Assembly (NCBI GenBank): GCA_021782995.1
Contig: JAJXUI010000002.1
Span: 19,074-83,073 of the forward strand
DNA from: Pseudomonadota bacterium
Lineage (GTDB): Bacteria > Pseudomonadota > Gammaproteobacteria > Burkholderiales > Gallionellaceae
Reading direction: 5' to 3'
Length of the DNA stretch: 64,000 nucleotides
A program made the position numbers and the translations under genes. The notes under the pieces are model-generated. The model searched no databases. It saw only the letters and a list, made by a program, of their open reading frames with translations, and was not told the origin of the DNA. Below, piece by piece: positions 49,263 through 61,866 of this stretch (positions within the stretch are counted from its first letter, which is position 1; the number at the start of each line of letters is the position of its first letter).

Positions 49263-51524
49263 TTATTTCACCAGCGACATGAACAGTTGCGGCAGGCGTT
49301 CCGGCAGCCGCGCAATGTTGTCGATCACCGCGTAATGCTTGCCGAAGATGTCGGCGACATAGTCATCCGCCCCGGGATCGAGATTGATGCAGTAAGTGTA
49401 AATGCCCTGCTGGTCCATTTCCTGCACGGCCTTGTGCGCATCTTCAATCAGCAGGCGCGCATCGCTGACATCGATATCGGCCGGTTCGCCGTCGGTCAGG
49501 ATCAGCAGCAATTTCTTGTCCGCCTGCTGGTGCGCCAGATAGTGCCCGGCATGCCGTATCGCAGCGCCCATGCGCGTGGAATATTCGGCGCGCATATTGG
49601 CCAGCCGCGCTTTCACCTCATTGCCCCAGTGTTCCCTGTAGCCCTTGAAGTGCCAGTAGCGCACGTTGTGCCGGGTGTCCGAATGGAAACCGCCGATGGC
49701 CAGCGGGTCGCCCATTTGCTCTACCGCCCAGGCCAGCAGCGATACGGCTTCCTGGCTGAGCTCCAGTTTGCTCTGGCTGCAGCCTTCCGGCACATCGCCC
49801 AGCGAAGCAGAGAGATCGAGCAGCAATGACACTGCCACGCTGCGGCCGTCGTGGCGGTGGCTCATGTTGATGCGCGGATCGGGCTGCGCGCCGCTCTTGA
49901 GATCAATCAATGAGCGCAGCGCAACATCCAGATCCAGTTCGGCACCTTCTTCCTGGTAGCGGATGCGCACCTTGTTCTGCGGCTTCAGCAGGTCGATGAT
50001 TTTCTGCAGGCGCTTGGCCAGCGCCTTGTGCTTGTCCAGCAGGCGATCGATCTCGCTGCCATTGCCTTGCGGGTGCAAGTGCTCATACACGCTGACCCAG
50101 TCCGGCCGGTAGTGCTCGGCGCCGTAATCCCATTCCGGATACAGGCGCGGCGGCACCGTGAATTCATCTTCCTGTTCTTCTGGCGGGCGCTGCCGTTCTT
50201 CGAAAACTTCCTCATCACCTGCTTCGATGAACTGCCACAGCAGGCGATTGTCATCGCGGTAATCGACCACGGTATCTTCAAAATGCACCTTGCTGGAGGA
50301 GTCGCTGGCCTGCCGCGTTTCGGCGATGAATTGCACACCCAGCGTCTGCATGTCTTTTGTGGTGGTGTTGCCTCCGGCCATCAGCGCGTGGAAGCGGGCG
50401 ACATAGTTGAGGATGACGGGGTGCGTATATTTATGCTGCGGATCGAGCAGCGCGCGCGACAGCATCGCCAGGCGCTGGCGGATATACGAAACTCCATCAA
50501 TATATTCAATATAATCAATTGGTTCTGGATGCAGCTTGCACCACAGCGCGCGCAGGCCGGGCAGCCTTTGCATGGCCAGCCATTCCACGCGCGAATCTTC
50601 GAATACTTCCACCGACATGCGCTGGAACGGACTCAGGTTGTCCGCAACCAGCTTGGTCGTCCACAGACGATGAGCGCTGATGTGTGCAAGCAGTGCGCGG
50701 TAGCGGTCGATACCGCGCACGCCGCCAGTACCATTCTCCTGCTTGGGCAGGTCATCATAGACATCCGGCAGGTGGATGCCCTGCTGGTTGAGATAGGGCA
50801 CGGGCTTGCGCAATTCATCGAAGGCGAGCGAGTAGGGGTACAGGTTTACATCGTCCTGCCACAGCGCACGCAGATACATGCCCAGTTTGCGTTCGTGTTC
50901 GACAAACAGCGTGCCGTGGCGTTCGCGCTGCAGCACGGCATGACTGTCCGGAGTCTTCAGGCGGAAATATTCCTGTTGCCGCTCGGGATCATTGGGGTAA
51001 GCAGCAACTCCGTAGTCCACCCAGTTGCGTATGCCTGCGAGCGATAGCTGGCCAAACAGATGTGCCGTGCTGTCGAGAAAATCCGGCAGGCACGGGCTGG
51101 TGTACATCGCATCGATGCCGTGCACTTTCGGGCTGGTACGCACGGCAGTATCCACCACCAGCTGCAGGTATTCGCGGAACAGCTCGATGCTTTCCAGCGC
51201 GCGTGCCGCCGAGGCCAGTGTTTGCAGGAAGTTGGGCACTGCCTTGCTGTTCGGCGATTTGGCCAGTGTACGCGTGAAGGTCACCACTTCCTCAATGACA
51301 CTCTCACCAAGCAGTCCGGCCACCTGCGGCATCTCCTCGAGATACACCAGCACGGGTTCTTCACCGCGCCCGGTGCGGTTGATGGCATTGGCGCCTTCAA
51401 TGTAGGAACGTATGCCCGCATCGCTCATATAGCGTCGCGCATTCGCGATGCAATCATCGAATACGGATTGCACGCGACTGAATTTGCATTGCAGGAGCTG
51501 GCGTTCTTCGCTGGGGGCTGTCAT
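49263..51524 (-). CDS. cbbO: CbbO, RuBisCO activase adaptor of the form II module
   Basis: The 753-residue protein ends in a von Willebrand factor A domain with the MIDAS start DLSASLGD near residue 569 and LTDGEPADIDV, as in CbbO and NorD. It joins the CbbQ hexamer to form the activase that removes inhibitory sugar phosphates from RuBisCO. Position after cbbM and cbbQ assigns it to form II. It is a clear paralogue of the 790-residue CbbO at 56459. Confidence 0.95.
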   Translation of the reverse strand: MTAPSEERQLLQCKFSRVQSVFDDCIANARRYMSDAGIRSYIEGANAINRTGRGEEPVLVYLEEMPQVAGLLGESVIEEVVTFTRTLAKSPNSKAVPNFLQTLASAARALESIELFREYLQLVVDTAVRTSPKVHGIDAMYTSPCLPDFLDSTAHLFGQLSLAGIRNWVDYGVAAYPNDPERQQEYFRLKTPDSHAVLQRERHGTLFVEHERKLGMYLRALWQDDVNLYPYSLAFDELRKPVPYLNQQGIHLPDVYDDLPKQENGTGGVRGIDRYRALLAHISAHRLWTTKLVADNLSPFQRMSVEVFEDSRVEWLAMQRLPGLRALWCKLHPEPIDYIEYIDGVSYIRQRLAMLSRALLDPQHKYTHPVILNYVARFHALMAGGNTTTKDMQTLGVQFIAETRQASDSSSKVHFEDTVVDYRDDNRLLWQFIEAGDEEVFEERQRPPEEQEDEFTVPPRLYPEWDYGAEHYRPDWVSVYEHLHPQGNGSEIDRLLDKHKALAKRLQKIIDLLKPQNKVRIRYQEEGAELDLDVALRSLIDLKSGAQPDPRINMSHRHDGRSVAVSLLLDLSASLGDVPEGCSQSKLELSQEAVSLLAWAVEQMGDPLAIGGFHSDTRHNVRYWHFKGYREHWGNEVKARLANMRAEYSTRMGAAIRHAGHYLAHQQADKKLLLILTDGEPADIDVSDARLLIEDAHKAVQEMDQQGIYTYCINLDPGADDYVADIFGKHYAVIDNIARLPERLPQLFMSLVK

Positions 51525-51544
51525 GGGCAGCCCTTATAACTTGG

Positions 51545-51605
51545 AATTCGCGAAGCGAAACGCTTGTTCCCTCTCCCTCCTGGGGAGGGGTAGGGAGGGG
51601 GTTCG
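51545..51605. repeat. Palindromic C/G-tract repeat between cbbQ and cbbO
   Basis: AAGCGAAACGCTT (51553-51565) is followed by a pyrimidine tract CCCTCTCCCTCC and its imperfect inverted copy GGGGAGGGGTAGGGAGGGGG. Such C-tract/G-tract palindromes recur between genes in many proteobacteria. It could shape the end of the cbbQ message. Confidence 0.5.
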
Positions 51606-51650
51606 AAGCATATCTGGCGCACTGATTGTAGTCGGAGAAATTGTCATGAT

Positions 51651-52469
51651 TCAGTCCGCAAACACCGCGTCGATCGCGTGTTCCAATGTATCGCGAATAT
51701 CCGCATCATCGGTGATCGGGCACACCAGCGCCATGCGGCAGGCATCCGTCGTCTCGATGCCCTGCTGGATCAATGTCGCTGCATACACCAGCAAACGCGT
51801 GGAGATGCCTTCGTCCAGGCCGTGGCCCTTCAGCTTGCGCGCGGCTTCGCCGATCTGCACCAGCTTGGCCGCCACCTCCGTGCTGATGCCGGTTTCCTTG
51901 CTGACGATGCCGGTTTCCACTTCAGCTTTCGCATAGTCGAACTCCAGACCGGCAAAGCGTTGTTTGGTGGATTGCTTCAGGTCTTTCATCAGGTTCTGGT
52001 AGCCGGGGTTGTAGGAAATCACCAGCTGGAAATCCTTGTGTGCCTGTACCAGCTCGCCCTTTTTGTCGAGCGGCAGGGTGCGTCTATGGTCGGTCAGCGG
52101 ATGGATGACGACGGTCGTATCCTGGCGTGCTTCCACCACTTCATCCAGATAGCAGATTGCCCCATGGCGTGCAGCCAGTGTCAGCGGGCCGTCGATCCAG
52201 GTGGTGCCGTTTGCATCCAGCAGGTAGCGGCCCACCAGATCGGAGGCGGTCATGTCTTCGTTGCAGGCCACCGTGATTAGCGGCTTTTGCAGGCGCCAGG
52301 CCATGTATTCGACGAAGCGCGATTTGCCGCAACCGGTGGGGCCCTTCAGCAGCACGGGAAGTCGGGCATTATAGGCAGCTTCGTAGAGCGCGATTTCCTT
52401 GCCTTGCGCCTGGTAGAAGGGCTCTTTTGCCACTTCATATTGTTTGATGTCAAAGTGATTGCTCATCAT
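51651..52469 (-). CDS. cbbQ: CbbQ, AAA+ activase motor of the form II module
   Basis: The 272-residue MoxR-type AAA+ ATPase has Walker A GPTGCGKS at residues 43-50, Walker [13 protein letters not shown] and the sensor region [15 protein letters not shown]. With CbbO it remodels RuBisCO. Two adjacent ATGs (52469 and 52466) both fit the AAGGA site. An intrinsic terminator separates it from cbbM, so its expression depends on read-through. Confidence 0.96.
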   Translation of the reverse strand: MMSNHFDIKQYEVAKEPFYQAQGKEIALYEAAYNARLPVLLKGPTGCGKSRFVEYMAWRLQKPLITVACNEDMTASDLVGRYLLDANGTTWIDGPLTLAARHGAICYLDEVVEARQDTTVVIHPLTDHRRTLPLDKKGELVQAHKDFQLVISYNPGYQNLMKDLKQSTKQRFAGLEFDYAKAEVETGIVSKETGISTEVAAKLVQIGEAARKLKGHGLDEGISTRLLVYAATLIQQGIETTDACRMALVCPITDDADIRDTLEHAIDAVFAD

Positions 52470-52489
52470 ATTTCCTTGCGTGTGAAAAA

Positions 52490-52523
52490 GGAAAAAAGCC
52501 CCTGCAGAAAATTCGGCAGGGGC
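52490..52523 (-). terminator. Intrinsic terminator between cbbM and cbbQ
   Basis: On the reverse strand GCCCCTGC (52523-52516) pairs with GCAGGGGC (52505-52498) around ten bases and is followed by six Ts. It should make most transcripts end after cbbM and leave cbbQO at a lower level. Confidence 0.85.
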
Positions 52524-52548
52524 CAGGGTTGTGCTTCAGGCGATCAGA

Positions 52549-53928
52549 TTACTTGTGTACGCCCAGTTTCTGTCTCCAGCCCGGATAGATCTTGTCCGCA
52601 TCTTTCGGGAAGGACTCGAAGGCACGGGCGAATTCCTTGTGGGATTTCGCAAACTCGATCGGGTCTGCACCGGATTTCCAGCACTCGTAAGACTGACGCA
52701 GGGAGATCGCGCCGGCAGCCGGGCTGTCGATATGGCCGTAAGAACCACCACCTGCGGTATTGATCACGTTGCCGTGGCCCAGATTCTCGAAGAAGCCTGG
52801 CAGGCGCAGCGCGTTCATGCCGCCGGAGATGATCGGCGTGGTCGGTTTCATGCAGTACCATTTCTGGAAGTAAACCGGACCCTGGCACTCGTCGCGCTCG
52901 ATCATGTAGGCGATGTTCTTGTCATCCGCTTCGCCTTCCATCTTGCCGTAGCCCATGGTGCCGACGTGGATGCCGGAAGCACCCTGCAGGCGGGAGATCT
53001 TCGCCAGCACGAAAGCGGTGTAACCGCGCTTGGCGCTGGGGGAGGTGATCATGCCGTGGCCGGCGCGATGGTAGTGCAGGTACTGGTTGGGATACTGGCG
53101 GCGTGCAGTGGTGATCATGCCGGGACCGCCGACGAAACCGTCAACCAGGAAGGCAACCTTGTCTGCGTCCGGGCCGAAAGTTTCGAGAATGAAGTCGGCG
53201 CGTGCGCACATTTCAAAGTGGTCATCGGCAGTGATGTTGGCGGAGAACAGTTTGGCCTGGCCGGTTTCGTCCTGCGCGCGCTTGAGTGCATCGGCCACCA
53301 GCGGAATGGTTTTCTTCAGTGGAGAGAAAACCTGGTTGCCCTGGGGTTCATCGTTCTTGATGAAGTCACCCCCCAGCCAGAACTGGTAAGCAGCGTGGGC
53401 AAACGGCTCCGGACGCAGACCGAGCTTGGGCTTGATGATGGTGCCGGAGATATAGCCGCCGTCCTTGACCGGGCGGCCGAGAATGCGCCACAGGTCGCTG
53501 ATGTCCTTGCTTGGACCATCGAACAGCTGGATCGCGCGCTCGGGGAAGAAGATGTCGATCATCTTCGCATGCTCGATGTCGCCCATGCCCTGGTTGTTAC
53601 CGATGGCCAGGGTCAGGAAGGAAACGATCATCATGCGGCCGTCGGTGATGTTGCGGTCGAACAGGTCCAGCGGATAGGCAATGCGCATGTCTTCGCTGGC
53701 TTCGTCGATGTAATACACCAGTGCGTCCACCCCCTTGGTGAATTCGTCGGTGGTGGAAACTTCCACGTTGGTGCCGGTGGAAGATTCTGCCGCAAAGTGG
53801 GCGGCGGCTTCGAGGTAGCCGTGGCCAGCCTTGGGCTTCATCTTGTAGGCAACCAGGATGTGTTTGCCGTCCTTGATAAGGTCGGCTTCCTTCAGGTCGA
53901 GGTTCGAATATCGTGCTGACTGATCCAT
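52549..53928 (-). CDS. cbbM: Form II ribulose-bisphosphate carboxylase
   Basis: The 459-residue enzyme matches form II: Lys166 in [12 protein letters not shown], the carbamylated Lys191 in [19 protein letters not shown] and loop-6 lysine in [11 protein letters not shown]. Numbering agrees with the Rhodospirillum enzyme. Form II tolerates high CO2 and low O2. It is divergent from its own cbbR. Confidence 0.98.
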
Positions 53929-55739: not shown

Positions 55740-56039
55740 TTATTCATCCTCACCCAGTTCGGGGTTCCAGCCGCGGTTACGGGCATCTGCCATGGCCTTG
55801 CTGTATATCTCTACATGGCGCTGGCGCAGTTCTGCGGGCAGGCGGCTGGGCAGGTTGCCGTACTTGTCCCACTCCTTTTCCACCTGGTCCATCAGGGACT
55901 GCATGCGTCCGCTATCCCAGTCGGTGCAATCGTCGGATTCGGGCAGGAATCCGAATAGCCATGCATCGAGTACGATGCGCCCGAGTTGGGTCATGCCGTG
56001 TTTGTCATTGTGGTAGCCGCAGTAAGTTTGTGCATTCAT
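55740..56039 (-). CDS. Hypothetical protein downstream of the form I cbb module
   Basis: I do not recognise this 99-residue acidic protein (GRIVLDAWLFGFLPESDD, helical MQSLMDQVEKEWDKYG, end NPELGEDE). AGGA seven bases upstream supports ATG 56039. An in-frame ATG at 56129 would add 30 residues and begin just after the cbbO-end repeat array, with a poor ribosome site. It lies downstream of cbbLSQO on the same strand and may be a late gene of that operon. Confidence 0.65.
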   Translation of the reverse strand: MNAQTYCGYHNDKHGMTQLGRIVLDAWLFGFLPESDDCTDWDSGRMQSLMDQVEKEWDKYGNLPSRLPAELRQRHVEIYSKAMADARNRGWNPELGEDE

Positions 56040-56130
56040 GTTGTATTCCTGAGATTCGGGTGCAGGGGGTGATGAACCCCGGAAATAGCCTGCATTTTCC
56101 AGGGCGGACATTAGACTGCGAATGTTCATG

Positions 56131-56505
56131 TTGCCTGCGGTTTATCGCGTTAATCCTGCGTATGGTAAAGGCAATTTTTGGTTTTGGCCGTGGCTTGCGC
56201 CACTTAACTTGCGTTGCAAGTGAACCTCCACCGAAAGTTCCCGCGCTTTATGTTATCTGGTTAAACCCGGGTAAAGTAGCGGGAGCTTTTGGTTGCGGCC
56301 GCAGCGCTTAACTTCGCTATGCGAAGTGAGCCTTCACCGAAAGCTGCCCATGCAGGTTTAACGCGTTAAACCTGCATATAATAGGGGTAGCTTTTGGTTT
56401 CGGCCGCCACTCTGTGGCTTAACTTGCTTCGCAAGTTAGCCTTCACCGAAAGCTTCCACTATCTTGTTAATCCTGCATATAGAAGTGGGAGCTTTTCCGG
56501 CAACC
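56131..56505. repeat. Tandem array of cbbO 3'-end copies alternating with branched hairpins
   Basis: Read on the minus strand, the last eleven codons plus stop of cbbO (56494-56459, peptide KLPLLYAGLTR) recur at 56393-56358 (KLPLLYAGLTR), 56288-56253 (KLPLLYPGLTR) and 56177-56142 (KLPLPYAGLTR), each followed by TAA. Unit spacings are 101, 105 and 111 bp. Most codons differ but almost only synonymously. Each copy sits in a palindrome; the one at 56350-56377 is a perfect 28-bp palindrome. Between copies lies a second element closed by ACCGAAAGCT/AGCTTTTGGT-type arms (56389/56445, 56284/56336, 56173/56230) and containing one or two inner hairpins (such as AACTTGC-TTC-GCAAGTT at 56421-56437). Its nature is unknown. 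Confidence 0.85.
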
Positions 56506-58831
56506 GTTCTACCTGATCCACCACCATGTAGTTCTTTGCACCGAAAATGCGTGAAACATACTGATCGGCACGCGGATCCAGGCTCATGCAGTAAGTGATA
56601 ATACCCGAGCGGCCGGCTTCTTCCACGGCTTTTTTCGTGTCCTGGCGCAGGTATTGCGGATCACGTACGTCGATATCGGCCGGCTCGCCGTCAGTAATGA
56701 CCAGCATCAGCTTTTTGGCCGAGCGCTGGTTCTTCAGGTAATGCGAGGCATGGCGTATCGCCGCGCCCATACGGGTGGACAGCTGTCCGCTCATGCCGGC
56801 GAGGCGTGACTTGGGCACATCGTCGTATGGCTGGTCGAAATCCTTGTAGCGGTAATATTCCACATCGTGGCGCCCATCGGAGCAGAAGCCGTGGATCGCA
56901 AACGGGTCGCCGATCTTGCTGATCGCATCAGCCAGCAGTACGCAAGCCTGGCGAGTCAGGTCGAGCACGGTATGGTCCTGTCCTGCGACTTTATCGTTCG
57001 TTGATTCTGAAAGATCAATCAGTACCATCACGGAAATGTCGCGCGTCTTGCGTACCGAACGCATCATGATGCGCGGGTCGGGTTGCTGACCCATGCGTAT
57101 GTCTATCATCGCGCGGATCGCCGCATTGATATCCACTTCATCGCCATCTTCCAGCTTGCGGATGCGCTGCACGCCCTGCGGCTGCATCGCATCGAGCAGG
57201 AATTTCATGCGCTGGATTTCGCGTTTGTACTGTCCGGCGATGTTCTCGATGATTTCCAGTTCGCCGGTCTTGGGGCGCTTCTCCATCACGGTGGTCCAGG
57301 TGGGGCGTTCCAGTTGTATTTGATAGTCCCACTCGGAATAGTGATAGGGTGCGGACAGCGGTTCCTTGCCTTCCATTTCATTGAAAGACTTGCCGTTGCT
57401 TTCATCACCAATGTTTTCGTAAGGATAGAGTTCGGTCGGCAGCACCCAGATTTCCTGGGCATCATCGCCAGCCAGCTCGGTGTCGATTTCATTGACCATC
57501 TCCATTACGCTGACATACTTGCGTACCTGCTGGATGGATTCATAACCTGCGGTGGCTGCTTTTTCGAAATCGAACTCTTCGAATTCCCAGAAGTAACGGT
57601 TGTCGTCGAGATAAGGCGCGCGCAGGGTATCAGTGCGCGGCGCAAAACCCAGCTTCAGCTGGTAGAGCTCGTGTGCGAGCTGTACGCCAATGTCCCACGA
57701 TAGCTGGTTGTCACTCAGGCGATGCTGTTCTGCCGCAAACAGTTCGCGTGCCTTGACGATGATCGGGTGATCATCCTGGTAAGCAGGATCCAGCAGCGCG
57801 CGGGCGATACGGTTGAGGTAATCGCCTATGCTCTTGTTCTGATCCGGTGTCGCGATATGCAGCCTGGACCACAGCTGGGCGAGGCCGGGGAATTTGTTGA
57901 TTGCGATCCGTTCGACGCGCGCATCTTCGATGGCGCCGATGATGGTCATCTGGAACGTGTTGAGGTTTTCACCGGAAATCGGCGAGTTGGTATAGGCAAT
58001 GTGTGCGGCACAGTGTGCTGTTGCAGCGCGGTACATCTCCAGGCCATCCACGCGCAGGGTTTCATTCCCTTCTGCATCCTTCACCACGAAATCATCGTAG
58101 GCATCCGGGATATGCAGCAGATAGTTCTCGATATACGGCTTGTAGCCTTCACGCTTTTCAAAATCGCCTGAAGTCGGGCGCATGAAGAAATCGCGCGCCC
58201 ATAATGCGCGCAGGTACATGTTGATGCGGCGCTGTACGTCGACAAACAGTGTGCCCTTGCGTTCCTGCTGCAGCACGGCCAGTGATTCCGGAGTCTGCAG
58301 GCCGAAATACTTGACCTGTTCTTCATAATTGGTGCGGTGTGCCTGCGCGCCCCAGGTGGCCCAGCGGCGCAGGCCGCCCAGTGTGAGCTGCGAGAACAGG
58401 GTTTCCAGGTTGTCCAGCATCGGCTTTACACCGCGCGGCGCACTGGCCAGCAGGTTGTTGATCAGCTGCAGGTATTTCTTGAACAGGTCGGCATCACCCA
58501 GACGTTCGGCGGCAAACGGAGCGGTGGAAAGCATCAGGTCGATCACGGTGCCGCTGGTTTTGGACGCCATCATCATGGCCCCATAAACCAGGTCGGGCAC
58601 GACATCCTCACCTACGGTGCGGGCGATGGGGGGGGCGTTTTCAATATAGGTGGTAACCAGTTCATTGCCGCGTCCCAGGTTTTTCAGGGAAATTGCGCCG
58701 TCGAGGTAGAACTGCAGTCCGCGCGGGCTGAAAATGCGTGCGGCATCCTGCCAGGTAGACTGCAAGATCTCGCGTGAGTGATCGGATAGATCACCGAGTA
58801 TTTCCTGATAATCTTCGAGATTGATAGACAT
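56459..58831 (-). CDS. cbbO: CbbO, RuBisCO activase adaptor of the form I module
   Basis: The 790-residue protein has the C-terminal VWA domain with DLSESTND near residue 605 and ITDGEPADIDV. It pairs with the adjacent CbbQ to reactivate form I RuBisCO. The C-terminal peptide KLPLLYAGLTR and its TAG stop are part of the repeated element at 56131-56505, so the gene's present 3' end may be an acquired copy. Confidence 0.95.
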   Translation of the reverse strand: MSINLEDYQEILGDLSDHSREILQSTWQDAARIFSPRGLQFYLDGAISLKNLGRGNELVTTYIENAPPIARTVGEDVVPDLVYGAMMMASKTSGTVIDLMLSTAPFAAERLGDADLFKKYLQLINNLLASAPRGVKPMLDNLETLFSQLTLGGLRRWATWGAQAHRTNYEEQVKYFGLQTPESLAVLQQERKGTLFVDVQRRINMYLRALWARDFFMRPTSGDFEKREGYKPYIENYLLHIPDAYDDFVVKDAEGNETLRVDGLEMYRAATAHCAAHIAYTNSPISGENLNTFQMTIIGAIEDARVERIAINKFPGLAQLWSRLHIATPDQNKSIGDYLNRIARALLDPAYQDDHPIIVKARELFAAEQHRLSDNQLSWDIGVQLAHELYQLKLGFAPRTDTLRAPYLDDNRYFWEFEEFDFEKAATAGYESIQQVRKYVSVMEMVNEIDTELAGDDAQEIWVLPTELYPYENIGDESNGKSFNEMEGKEPLSAPYHYSEWDYQIQLERPTWTTVMEKRPKTGELEIIENIAGQYKREIQRMKFLLDAMQPQGVQRIRKLEDGDEVDINAAIRAMIDIRMGQQPDPRIMMRSVRKTRDISVMVLIDLSESTNDKVAGQDHTVLDLTRQACVLLADAISKIGDPFAIHGFCSDGRHDVEYYRYKDFDQPYDDVPKSRLAGMSGQLSTRMGAAIRHASHYLKNQRSAKKLMLVITDGEPADIDVRDPQYLRQDTKKAVEEAGRSGIITYCMSLDPRADQYVSRIFGAKNYMVVDQVERLPEKLPLLYAGLTR

Positions 58832-58948
58832 GGCTCAGCTGGAACCCCGGTACCGCCAGCATGCAAGCTGGCCGTGACGGGATTCACCCTCCTGTTTTTC
58901 CAAACCTTGTAAATGACACTGCATCATTGCAGTGCCCGTACCCAATAA
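58832..58948. other. cbbQ-cbbO intercistronic hairpins
   Basis: Two small perfect stems, GCCAGC/GCTGGC (58855-58872) and CACTGC/GCAGTG (58917-58934), lie in the 117 bp between cbbQ and cbbO of the form I module. Neither is followed by a T-run; they may protect or process the message. Confidence 0.5.
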
Positions 58949-59752
58949 TCAGAAGAATGTTCCGACTGCGGCATCCAGTGCATCGCGCATGTCTGGATCG
59001 TCCGTGATCGGGCGGACCAGCGCAACACGGCATGCATTCTTCGGCTCTACGCCCTTGGAAATCAGGCTGCCTGCGTACACCAGCATACGGGTGGAGATGC
59101 CTTCATCGAGGCCGTGGCCTTTCAGGTTACGTGCACGCTCTGCAATCGATACCAGTTTGTCGGCCACTTCCGAATCCACCTTGCCTTCGTGGGAAACGAT
59201 TTCGGTTTCTACCGCATGATCCGGATAGTTGAAGTCCAGCGCGCCGAAACGCTGCTTGGTGGACTGTTTCAGGTCTTTCATCAGCGACTGGTAGCCGGGG
59301 TTGTAGGAAATCACCAGCTGGAAGTCAGGATGCGCATCAATCAGTTCACCTTTCTTTTCCAGCGGCAACTGGCGGCGTGCATCAGTCAGCGGGTGGATCA
59401 CCACGGTGGTGTCCTGACGGGCTTCTACAACCTCATCCAGGTAGCAGATCGCGCCGTAACGTGCGGCGATGGCCAAGGGGCCATCCTGCCAGCGCGTGCC
59501 CTGTGCATCGAGCAGGAATCGGCCCACGAGGTCGGAGGCGGTCATGTCTTCGTTACAGGCGACAGTAATCAATGGCTTCTGCAGTTTCCACGCCATGTAT
59601 TCGACAAAGCGGGTTTTACCGCAGCCAGTCGGGCCTTTCAGCATCATCGGCATGCGCACGGAATAGGCCGCTTCATACATTTCCACCTCGTCAGAGACGG
59701 CGCGATAGTAAGGTTCCTTGGTAACCACGTACTGCTTGATAATGTCATTCAT
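58949..59752 (-). CDS. cbbQ: CbbQ, AAA+ activase motor of the form I module
   Basis: The 267-residue MoxR-type ATPase has Walker A GPTGCGKT at residues 40-47 and Walker [13 protein letters not shown]. It is closely related to the form II CbbQ at 51651. A terminator between cbbS and this gene should lower its transcript level relative to RuBisCO. Confidence 0.96.
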
Positions 59753-59831
59753 GTCAGTTCCTTTTGGTTCAGCATTCAGCTATTTGCTCTTGAAAAATAC
59801 AATAAAAACAGATAGTTGAAAGCTAAATTTT

Positions 59832-59867
59832 AAACAAAAATCCCCGTCACCTCGCGGCAACGGGGAT
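59832..59867 (-). terminator. Intrinsic terminator between cbbS and cbbQ
   Basis: On the reverse strand ATCCCCGT (59867-59860) pairs with ACGGGGAT (59847-59840) around 12 bases, followed by TTTTTG. It lies just after cbbS. Confidence 0.82.
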
Positions 59868-59897
59868 CTTGGTCAGTCAAATTCCGGTGCGATGGAA

Positions 59898-60254
59898 TTA
59901 AACAGTCTTGCCGCGGTAGATAACCATCGATGCGCCCTGGCTTTGAGCAAAGTTGTCATAGCCAATCAGACGTACGTGGTTGTTCGGGTTGGCTTTCTTG
60001 CAAGCTTCTGCTTCGGCCAGTACTTTTTCTACATCAGTTTCGCCGAACATCGGCAGTTTCCACATGTACCAGTAGGAGTCCATCAGGTGCTCAGGCTCTG
60101 TGTGCTCAATCGCCGGGTTCCAGCCCTTGCTTACCAGATACTGAACCTGCTTCTTGATTTCGTCAGCAGACATTGCTGGCAAGTAGGAGAAGGTTTCGAA
60201 TTTACGGCTGGCTGGATCAGACAGGCGTGATTTGTAGTCCATTACTTCGCTCAT
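59898..60254 (-). CDS. cbbS: Form I RuBisCO small subunit
   Basis: The 118-residue small subunit contains [14 protein letters not shown] and [16 protein letters not shown]. Its N-terminus has an extra stretch ([17 protein letters not shown]) compared with carboxysomal small subunits; as I recall, a short insert here marks form IAq, the non-carboxysomal type that pairs with CbbQO. Ribosome site AGGAAG precedes the ATG. Confidence 0.96.
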
Positions 60255-60293
60255 GATTCTTCCTTTAATTTATGCGTTAGCGTTCAGATCGCA

Positions 60294-60316
60294 GGGCGGC
60301 GATTGCTCGCCTGCCC
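60294..60316 (-). other. cbbL-cbbS intercistronic hairpin
   Basis: GGGC-A-GGCGA pairs with TCGCC-GCCC around a GCAA tetraloop (GNRA type) on the reverse strand. There is no T-run. It probably stabilises the cbbL or cbbS message. Confidence 0.6.
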
Positions 60317-60327
60317 ATATACGGTTC

Positions 60328-61749
60328 TTACTTGTGTGATACGTCCAGCTTGTCCACAGTGTCGAACTCGAACTTGATTTCTTTCCATGTTTCCATGGCG
60401 ATCTTCAGTTCCGGGCTGCTCTTGGCTGCGTTGGTCAGCACTTCCTTGCCTTCCTTCTCGATGGCAACACCCTGGTTACGTGCGGCTACGCAAGCTTCCA
60501 GCGCGACGCGGTTCGCGGCGGCACCCGCGGCGTTACCCCATGGGTGACCCAATGTACCACCACCGAATTGCAGAACGGAGTCGTCGCCGAAGATGGTTAC
60601 CAGTGCTGGCATGTGCCATACGTGAATACCACCGGATGCAACTGGCAGTACGCCAGGCATGGAGCCGAAGTCCTGGTCAAAGAAGATACCGCGGCTGCGG
60701 TCTTCCTTGATGAAGCTGTCACGCATCAGGTCGATCCAGCCCAGGGTTGCTTCGCGGTCGCCTTCCAGCTTGCCCACAACGGTACCGGAGTGCAGGTGGT
60801 CACCGCCGGACAGACGCAGAACTTTGGTCAGCACGCGGAAGTGGATACCGTGGTGCGGGTTACGGTCCAGCACGGCGTGCATCGCGCGGTGGATGTGCAG
60901 CAGAACGCCGTTGTTACGGCACCAGTTGGCCAGACCTGTGTTGGCTGTCAAACCGCCAGTCAGGTAGTCATGCATGATGATCGGAGAACCGAGTTCCTTC
61001 GCGTATTCAGCGCGCTTGTACATTTCTTCAGGTGTCGGAGCAGTCACGTTCAGGTAGTGACCCTTGCGCTCGCCTGTCTCACGCTCAGCTTTTTCAATCG
61101 CTTCCTGGCAGAAGTCAAAACGCTGTTTCCAGCGCATGAATGGCTGGCTGTTGATGTTCTCGTCGTCCTTGGTGAAGTCCAGACCGCCGCGCAGGCACTC
61201 ATAAACAGCGCGACCGTAGTTTTTGCCGGACAGACCCAGTTTTGGCTTGATGGTGCAACCCAGCAGCGGACGACCATACTTGTTCATCATGTCGCGCTCA
61301 ACCTGGATACCGTGAGGAGGACCGCCGCAGGTCTTGACATAGGCGATCGGGAAGCGTACGTCTTCCAGACGCAGTGCGCGCAGGGCCTTGAAGCCGAACA
61401 CGTTACCAACCAGAGAGGTCAGTACGTTAACCATGGAGCCTTCTTCGAACAGGTCGATAGGGTAGGCTACGAAAGCGTAGAAGCAGGTGTCGTCGCCAGG
61501 CACGTCTTCGATTGCATAGGCGCGACCTTTGTAATAGTCCAGGTCGGTCAGCAGGTCTGTCCACACTGTGGTCCATGTACCTGTCGAAGATTCAGCAGCA
61601 ACAGCAGCTGCAACTTCTTCACGATCCACGCCAGGCTGAGGAGTGATCTTGAAGCAAGCAAGAATGTCGGTGTCGAGCGGTGTATATTCCGGCATCCAGT
61701 AAGTTTGCCGGTACTCTTTTACACCGGCGCTATATTTTTTGACTGCCAT
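60328..61749 (-). CDS. cbbL: Form I RuBisCO large subunit
   Basis: The 473-residue subunit has Lys168 in [13 protein letters not shown], the carbamylated Lys194 in [13 protein letters not shown], and loop 6 [16 protein letters not shown] before ATG 61749 fixes the start four codons inside the longer frame. With the CbbS insert and cbbQO downstream it is a cytosolic form I (IAq) enzyme; a carboxysomal form I copy would be expected beyond the right edge. Confidence 0.98.
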
Positions 61750-61866
61750 AACAACCTCCATTTAATTAACAAAAATAATCGATCAAGCAATGTCAGCAAA
61801 ACGACATGACGCGGCACTATACACACACAAGCCTATAAGCAACATTAAATAATATTGATTGTTATG

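Follow-up and report, generated by a model that had tools for sequence, protein, structure and literature searches.

Mobile-ORF insertions, which encode homing endonucleases, have been described in fungal mitochondria, in atp6 of Allomyces and in atp6, atp9, cox2 and nad3 of Glomus (PMC3630166). In these insertions, the inserted C-terminal end is foreign and mostly synonymously diverged, and the native end lies downstream, where it resembles the end of a close relative (PMC3630166). Rickettsia palindromic elements are approximately 100 nt long and lie within conserved protein genes that they do not inactivate, adding an in-frame peptide (PMC2229807). The units considered here occur behind a cbbO gene in a 64-kb stretch of Gallionellaceae DNA (the window). 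They share with the mitochondrial elements the entry of a foreign C-terminal end and the downstream displacement of the native one (loci L085, L110 and L068; 81 loci compared), but the mitochondrial elements encode an endonuclease (PMC3630166), whereas the bacterial chromosomal units are non-coding, span 98–140 nt (18 cbbO units measured) and carry one core over at least 17 genes. With the Rickettsia elements they share a size of about 100 nt and a location inside conserved protein genes; the Rickettsia elements add an in-frame peptide (PMC2229807), whereas the gene-end units finish the protein with their own copy of the C-terminus and a stop. The measured lengths are too short for a homing endonuclease. 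The C-terminus-replacing elements of fungal mitochondria are the nearest parallel, and the bacterial units are not members of that group.

Integron gene cassettes are tandem hairpin-bearing units with the newest next to the attachment point. The present units resemble cassettes and their attC sites in both respects, but show no integrase association, possess a gene-specific arm and insert within housekeeping genes. REP elements are extragenic and do not replace gene ends. Like REP elements with Y1 (RAYT) transposases, the units are dispersed and fold as single-stranded DNA; they differ in lying within gene ends. In a panel of 24 genomes picked by hand, 12 with and 12 without core matches, Y1 transposase was absent at E 1e-8 from five of the 12 carriers (G064, G152, G304, G055 and G394). 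Group II introns or retroelements are not matched either, with no RVT_1 match in seven of the 12 carriers and no Rfam match to the core, nor are IS110 and IS1111, the DEDD transposase being absent from eight of the 12. None of the three enzymes was present in all 12 carriers, and G064, G152, G055 and G394 were without all of them at this threshold. A host recombinase or an unsampled helper is a possible recombining enzyme. The inverted arm and a short direct repeat at the junction might suggest a MITE, but no parent transposon came to light. Within the portions of the open-licence literature that were covered, no bacterial element of this gene-end cassette kind was found; one may still be in print elsewhere. 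No tested family fits the gene-end units, while the bringing of an own gene end has a mitochondrial precedent (PMC3630166).

The host gene (Table 1) encodes a von Willebrand factor A domain protein and is flanked by AAA-ATPase and RubisCO genes. The name cbbO was taken from the initial annotation and fits this context; the window gene gave no NCBIfam match at E 1e-10. That annotation had reported four tandem copies of the cbbO end on the minus strand, and the peptides were indeed read at all four coordinates. When 12 codons are compared, with the stop counted in, copies 1 and 2 differ at 9 bases and in no residue, copies 1 and 3 at 9 bases and in one residue, and copies 1 and 4 at 11 bases and in one residue; for the three other pairs the figures are 10, 10 and 12 bases and 1, 1 and 2 residues. 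The earlier counts of 8, 8 and about 11 bases were right to within one base, two of them being off by one, and the residue changes of 0, 1 and 1 stood. The copies are spaced by 101, 105 and 111 nt, and Tandem Repeats Finder reported no repeat at the array. From its position, the bare last copy is presumably the original resident cbbO end and the oldest of the array, which would comprise three successive insertions, the newest adjoining cbbO.

Table 1 Features of the array behind cbbO in the window.
Feature	Position	Strand	Content and basis
cbbO, host gene	56459..58831	minus	ORF list and Pfam VWA match; last 12 codons belong to unit 1
Unit 1, 101 nt	56395..56495	minus	Gene end in use KLPLLYAGLTR-stop, left arm, core; model match 56385-56459, 97.4 bits
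Unit 2, 105 nt	56290..56394	minus	Displaced end KLPLLYAGLTR-stop, palindrome, left arm, core; model match 56280-56350, 56.4 bits
Palindrome of unit 2	56350-56377		Inverted repeat
Unit 3, 111 nt	56179..56289	minus	Displaced end KLPLLYPGLTR-stop, left arm, core; model match 56169-56244, 86.2 bits
Displaced end, last in array, bare	56142..56178	minus	KLPLPYAGLTR-stop; sequence
cbbO-end copy 1	56459-56494	minus	KLPLLYAGLTR-stop
cbbO-end copy 2	56358-56393	minus	KLPLLYAGLTR-stop
cbbO-end copy 3	56253-56288	minus	KLPLLYPGLTR-stop
cbbO-end copy 4	56142-56177	minus	KLPLPYAGLTR-stop
Small downstream gene	55740..56129	minus	ORF list and cbbO relatives

The window contains two RubisCO clusters (49263-53928 and 56459-61761), both of which include a cbbO-like gene and a cbbQ-like one for an AAA-ATPase; the cbbO-like gene of the first cluster (49263-51524) has a different end, RLPQLFMSLVK, and is without a core match. 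A further unit of the window's own genome is located at smpB (G000:C19, L144).

Within each window unit, a KLPxxYxGLTR end with its stop is followed by a folded core, and the next gene end begins directly thereafter. The start of the unit falls within the GAA AAG codons of the preceding gene end (GA^AAAG in unit 1); the insertion point is 34 nt upstream of the cbbO stop codon and not, as first proposed, at the stop itself. The core folds into a three-way junction of an outer stem and two inner hairpins, the outer stem being formed with an inverted copy of the gene end's first bases, the left arm. The folding energy of the unit 1 core is −32 kcal/mol (z −4.64); the cores of units 2 and 3 have z values of −2.07 and −0.99, the last of which is not significant by energy taken by itself. 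From covariation and from its occurrence in many other genomes, the core structure is more than chance. A model (R1) built from five cores produced 23 matches in 86 sources, every one at a cbbO 3′ end; three of these are opposite-strand images, and L015 and L108 apparently represent one genome twice. Across 21 distinct copies, 55 cells were changed on both sides of a pair versus 14.8 in shuffles, with none of 500 shuffles as high, and 93.8% of the cells in paired columns were paired, in an alignment that was fitted to the model and hence favours the structure. The 113 cores inspected for loops contain 214 hairpin loops, of which 152 are triloops and 97 of these C(GNA)G, presumably the very stable d(GCGNAGC) mini-hairpin of single-stranded DNA.

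In four cbbO loci (L082, L087, L099 and L100) the unit reads, by eye, as one short ORF. It opens at an ATG that overlaps the stop of cbbO, crosses the core and finishes with the displaced end, the stop of which abuts or overlaps the next ATG; translation may in this way stay coupled to the next gene. A coding function of the core, suggested by this open frame, was rejected, as a stop interrupts the frame in window unit 1.

The end in use was compared with the displaced end in 11 genes, with 81 of 110 loci kept and the other 29 having either no ORF end in range or a gene not among the 11. The junction reads GA^[AC]AA in 80 of the 81 loci and GA^TAA in one. Offsets were derived from the best-matching register for nine genes; for proB and glmS, which gave no clear offset, they were set by hand from the junction motif, and these two genes are thus not independent support for it, the proB offset being supported by the proB arm match. 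Three further genes lie outside the register comparison, metK for want of a consistent offset and ccmE and nrdB because they are not among the gene patterns. The codon phase of the junction is fixed in 11 of 11 genes, but was discarded as a meaningful feature, since 37 of 48 GA[AC]AA sites in ten window genes share that phase.

The left arm is gene-specific. It agrees with the start of its own unit's end at 90.6% of 12 nt and with the displaced end at 65.0%; locus by locus, its own end matched better in 69 of 81 cases and the displaced end in one, with 11 ties. The window arms match their own and the next end at 10 and 9 of 11 nt in unit 1, 9 and 8 in unit 2, and 10 and 7 in unit 3, a preference in the same direction as at other loci and weak for units 1 and 2. 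The inverted copy extends over much of the end in window unit 2 and at several of the proB loci, which gives a palindrome.

The initial annotation regarded the element as targeting cbbO, a view that does not hold, as the same core is present in at least 17 genes. Model searches located the core in 115 of 158 family genomes (Gallionellaceae, E 0.01), representing 14 of 15 genera with up to 20 matches per genome, and in 82 of 300 genomes sampled across the order (Burkholderiales, E 1e-4), representing 43 of 135 genera; the genome-wide counts include opposite-strand images and come from the scored part of the candidates. From the top of the family list, and so not at random, 95 strong matches were examined. 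An ORF stop on the same strand lies between −130 and +25 nt from the hairpin start in 88 of them, and in 45 a displaced peptide reached an automatic score of at least 25. A displaced end is recognisable behind cbbO, proB, ftsW, nrdA, nrdB, acs, argF, smpB, metK, dnaJ, ccmE, serS, accB, mraY, dapD and the genes for a pterin dehydratase and an ABC-transporter binding protein; at glmS the core is at a like junction and the displaced end is decayed. Gene names derive from HMM matches of one representative each, cbbO being named by context, and the match for the ABC-transporter binding protein was below every curated cut-off. Six core matches lie in a row behind an ABC-transporter binding-protein gene (G238:C67:14708-15353), and five at G055:C1:1737651-1738305. 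At a serS locus (L146, in G001), the end in use is GGLEIIQAS-stop, with this stop inside the left arm, and the displaced end is GGMEKISPQ-stop; the unit seems in this case to have altered the last residues.

The cbbO 3′ regions of relatives were compared at 80 named loci, the best 80 of 252. Units occur there at 12 of the 80 loci by model match; a further locus, L101, shows by eye a relic of a displaced end only. The small downstream gene begins, in several of the empty relatives, so close to cbbO that its start overlaps or adjoins the cbbO stop. One close filled/empty comparison, the only one that polarises a cbbO event, involves the filled locus L085 and the empty loci L110 and L068, from each of which it diverges by 5.2% over the upstream 330 bases. 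The end in use of L085 differs from the native end of L110 at 10 of 33 bases and from that of L068 at 9, whereas the displaced end behind the core differs at only 2 and 3 bases, respectively; the two empty loci differ from each other at 1 of 33. The displaced end is thus near the resident one and the end in use is far from it, which argues that the unit arrived with its own end. The flanks of L085 are resident-like up to the junction, with 1 of 33 bases differing from L110 upstream and 1 of 60 downstream. This comparison supports the earlier proposal that each copy once served as a working C-terminus and that a small element inserts repeatedly with a restored end, its mobility being our interpretation of the sequences. 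In all divergence classes, the gene ends of filled-empty pairs differ more than those of empty-empty pairs: 0.25 (4 pairs) versus 0.16 (11) at 2-6% upstream distance, 0.20 (15) versus 0.169 (100) at 6-10%, 0.302 (44) versus 0.205 (340) at 10-15%, 0.284 (118) versus 0.228 (506) at 15-20%, and 0.299 (509) versus 0.261 (581) at 20-26%.

A unit and its host gene seem to differ in history in the window as well. Window unit 1 shares 84.2% identity with the unit of L014 (G002) and 82.0% with that of L108 (the contig of G001); both belong to the window's genus, and their cbbO genes are 74.3% and 74.8% identical to the window cbbO over 600 nt. In contrast, its identity falls to 66.1% for the L050 unit and to 63.9% for the L034 unit, where the cbbO genes are closer, at 84.5% and 85.2%, respectively. 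Unit 1, near the units of genomes with distant cbbO genes and far from those with near ones, therefore has the look of a new arrival from a different lineage. Unit 2 has its nearest match in the L034 unit (76.9%), and unit 3 is without a clear nearest relative (best 72.7%, L084). The window units are 70-74% identical among themselves, unit 1 being 74% identical to unit 2 and 70% to unit 3. In the proposed test of whether inner units match other genomes better than each other, unit 1 does so, and unit 3, with a best outside match of 72.7% against 70% for its neighbours, does not stand out. Most units yielded no donor of their end.

A similar comparison of ftsW used 30 relatives out of 143 genomes in which a match was obtained. 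Over 34 nt, the end that L255 uses equals the native one of the empty locus L242 at an upstream divergence of 12.2%, and L232 and L250 show 2 differences in 34 end bases at 15%. Conversely, the pairs L249/L252 and L257/L258, now without a core, differ at 12 of 34 end bases at upstream divergences of only 3.9% and 4.2%, which indicates turnover of the end block also at loci that now have no unit; lost cores, other insertions or ordinary recombination may account for this. Below 8% upstream divergence, filled-empty pairs show no excess (8.0 of 34 bases, 3 pairs, versus 7.67, 6 empty-empty pairs), which counts against the cassette reading given below, and at 8-12% the values are 9.18 (11 pairs) versus 6.4 (15). 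In ten of the loci (L233, L234, L237, L241, L248, L249, L250, L253, L257 and L259) the ftsW-murG gap contains other hairpin-forming repeats with a sequence unlike the core, with motifs such as GCCACAGAGAACAC or GGACTGAGGA.

Taken from sequence comparison, the reading we favour with good confidence is that a non-coding unit of about 100 nt, located at GA^(A/C)AA in the final codons of cbbO and of numerous further genes, is a likely mobile cassette that supplies a protein-compatible end of foreign origin and displaces the resident one downstream. The most serious alternative, possible but clearly less probable, dispenses with a dedicated element: DNA of unit-carrying relatives would be taken up and pair with the same gene, and the unit would be copied in, either looped out or through slippage at its short terminal repeats. 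This would accommodate the recurrence of units at one site of a given gene in different species, the protein compatibility of the ends and the existence of tandem copies (L082 and the arrays of six matches on G238:C67 and five on G055:C1). On the other hand, the flanks of L085 are resident-like on both sides, such that the exchanged tract would be the unit alone; moreover, the presence of one core in at least 17 unrelated genes needs a jump between genes, and the core is conserved across genera.

The core could also be a 3′ untranslated RNA element, acting for instance in transcript stability or termination, that is selected at gene ends and spread by inheritance and recombination, with the second end as a by-product. 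The strong compensatory changes, an orientation that is always relative to the gene in the examined set and the pairing of the arm with the gene end in use are compatible with such a role, which we nevertheless consider unlikely. It leaves both the displaced end and the foreign end in use unexplained, and the C(GNA)G motif of 97 of the 152 triloops is unusually stable in single-stranded DNA. No Rfam family matched the window region (E up to 1), and at 20 loci with cores the search returned two tRNAs only (E up to 0.05). Searches beyond RNA families gave no match of one core sequence to plasmid and phage collections and no occurrence of one exact core pattern in viral contigs.

Much less probable is an integron-like system in which the core is an attC-like site for an integron integrase and new cassettes enter on the gene-proximal side. 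The hairpin site, the tandem arrays and the newest unit beside the gene recall such a system, and an integron integrase exceeds the cut-off in 84 of the 158 family genomes. Its presence is not associated with the core: the mean number of matches is 4.49 in 83 genomes with the integrase (best E < 1e-80) and 4.00 in 75 without it (p 0.64), although past activity is possible. The units are furthermore scattered over housekeeping genes, and their arm is gene-specific.

Silent and non-silent differences between the two ends were counted over the first 8 codons at most, with frame-shifted rows kept. The silent/non-silent counts are 87/34 for cbbO (17 loci), 58/44 for proB (15), 83/49 for ftsW (14), 35/61 for glmS (6), 31/56 for nrdA (9), 7/13 for acs (2), 38/10 for argF (8), 25/20 for smpB (5), 9/1 for dnaJ (2), 1/1 for serS (2) and 2/0 for accB (1 locus). 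The counts of glmS, nrdA and acs, with more non-silent than silent changes, thus include many decayed or shifted copies; those of glmS and nrdA weigh against the cassette reading. At least 5 silent and no non-silent differences were found at 16 of 39 loci of cbbO, ftsW and argF, and simulation of duplication followed by neutral decay at seven ages gave this outcome with a chance of at most 0.004 per locus, a value that is not an exact probability because the loci are related and the counts not independent. Judged on these counts, neutral decay of a duplicated resident end is a poor account of the silent-only divergence at many of the loci, as the initial annotation had argued for the window copies. 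Plain tandem duplication of the resident gene end and core is accordingly the least credible explanation and disfavoured for most loci, contradicted also by the displaced end of L085, which is the resident one, though it may hold for the few loci with near-identical ends (L082 and L146 with 0 differences, L099 and L144 with 1, L172 with 2 in 8 codons), where the ends may be self-derived or fresh captures.

We count the anatomy, the same-strand position, the displaced second end, the one filled/empty comparison in cbbO, the mostly silent divergence and the match of the arm to its own end as established. The mobile-cassette reading would assemble these as follows. A unit, built from a stop-bearing gene end, a short inverted repeat of its opening bases and the folded core, would insert at GA^(A/C)AA in the final codons, shifting the resident end downstream, and units would travel between species. 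The travelling form may be an excised single strand or a small circle. In an excised circle, the arm would pair with its own end beside the core, which is the basis for a proposed rod of arm, core and own end that is closed by the core. The same pairing could take place locally around the gene end and is no proof of a rod; a hairpin selected in the transcript could be another reason for it. A new target gene would be entered by capture of that gene's native end. In its broadest form, the proposal is that gene-end cassettes are a new class of mobile DNA, in which a conserved core of about 57 nt picks up a housekeeping gene's own 3′ end in a single-strand rod that it closes, moves between species and inserts at the GA^(A/C)AA of the orthologue, the C-terminal codons of core genes being replaced repeatedly without loss of function in many betaproteobacteria; we give this form even odds. 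To our knowledge, such a non-coding gene-end unit would be among the smallest systems of its type.

If this is true, a selfish element hides in essential genes by handing each of them a working replacement end, and the last codons of core genes may have a history unlike that of the rest of the gene. Such divergent end histories would affect phylogeny, annotation and models of bacterial recombination. The finding also opens a testable question, namely which enzyme, of the host or of a helper, recombines folded cores whose arms are specific to the gene.
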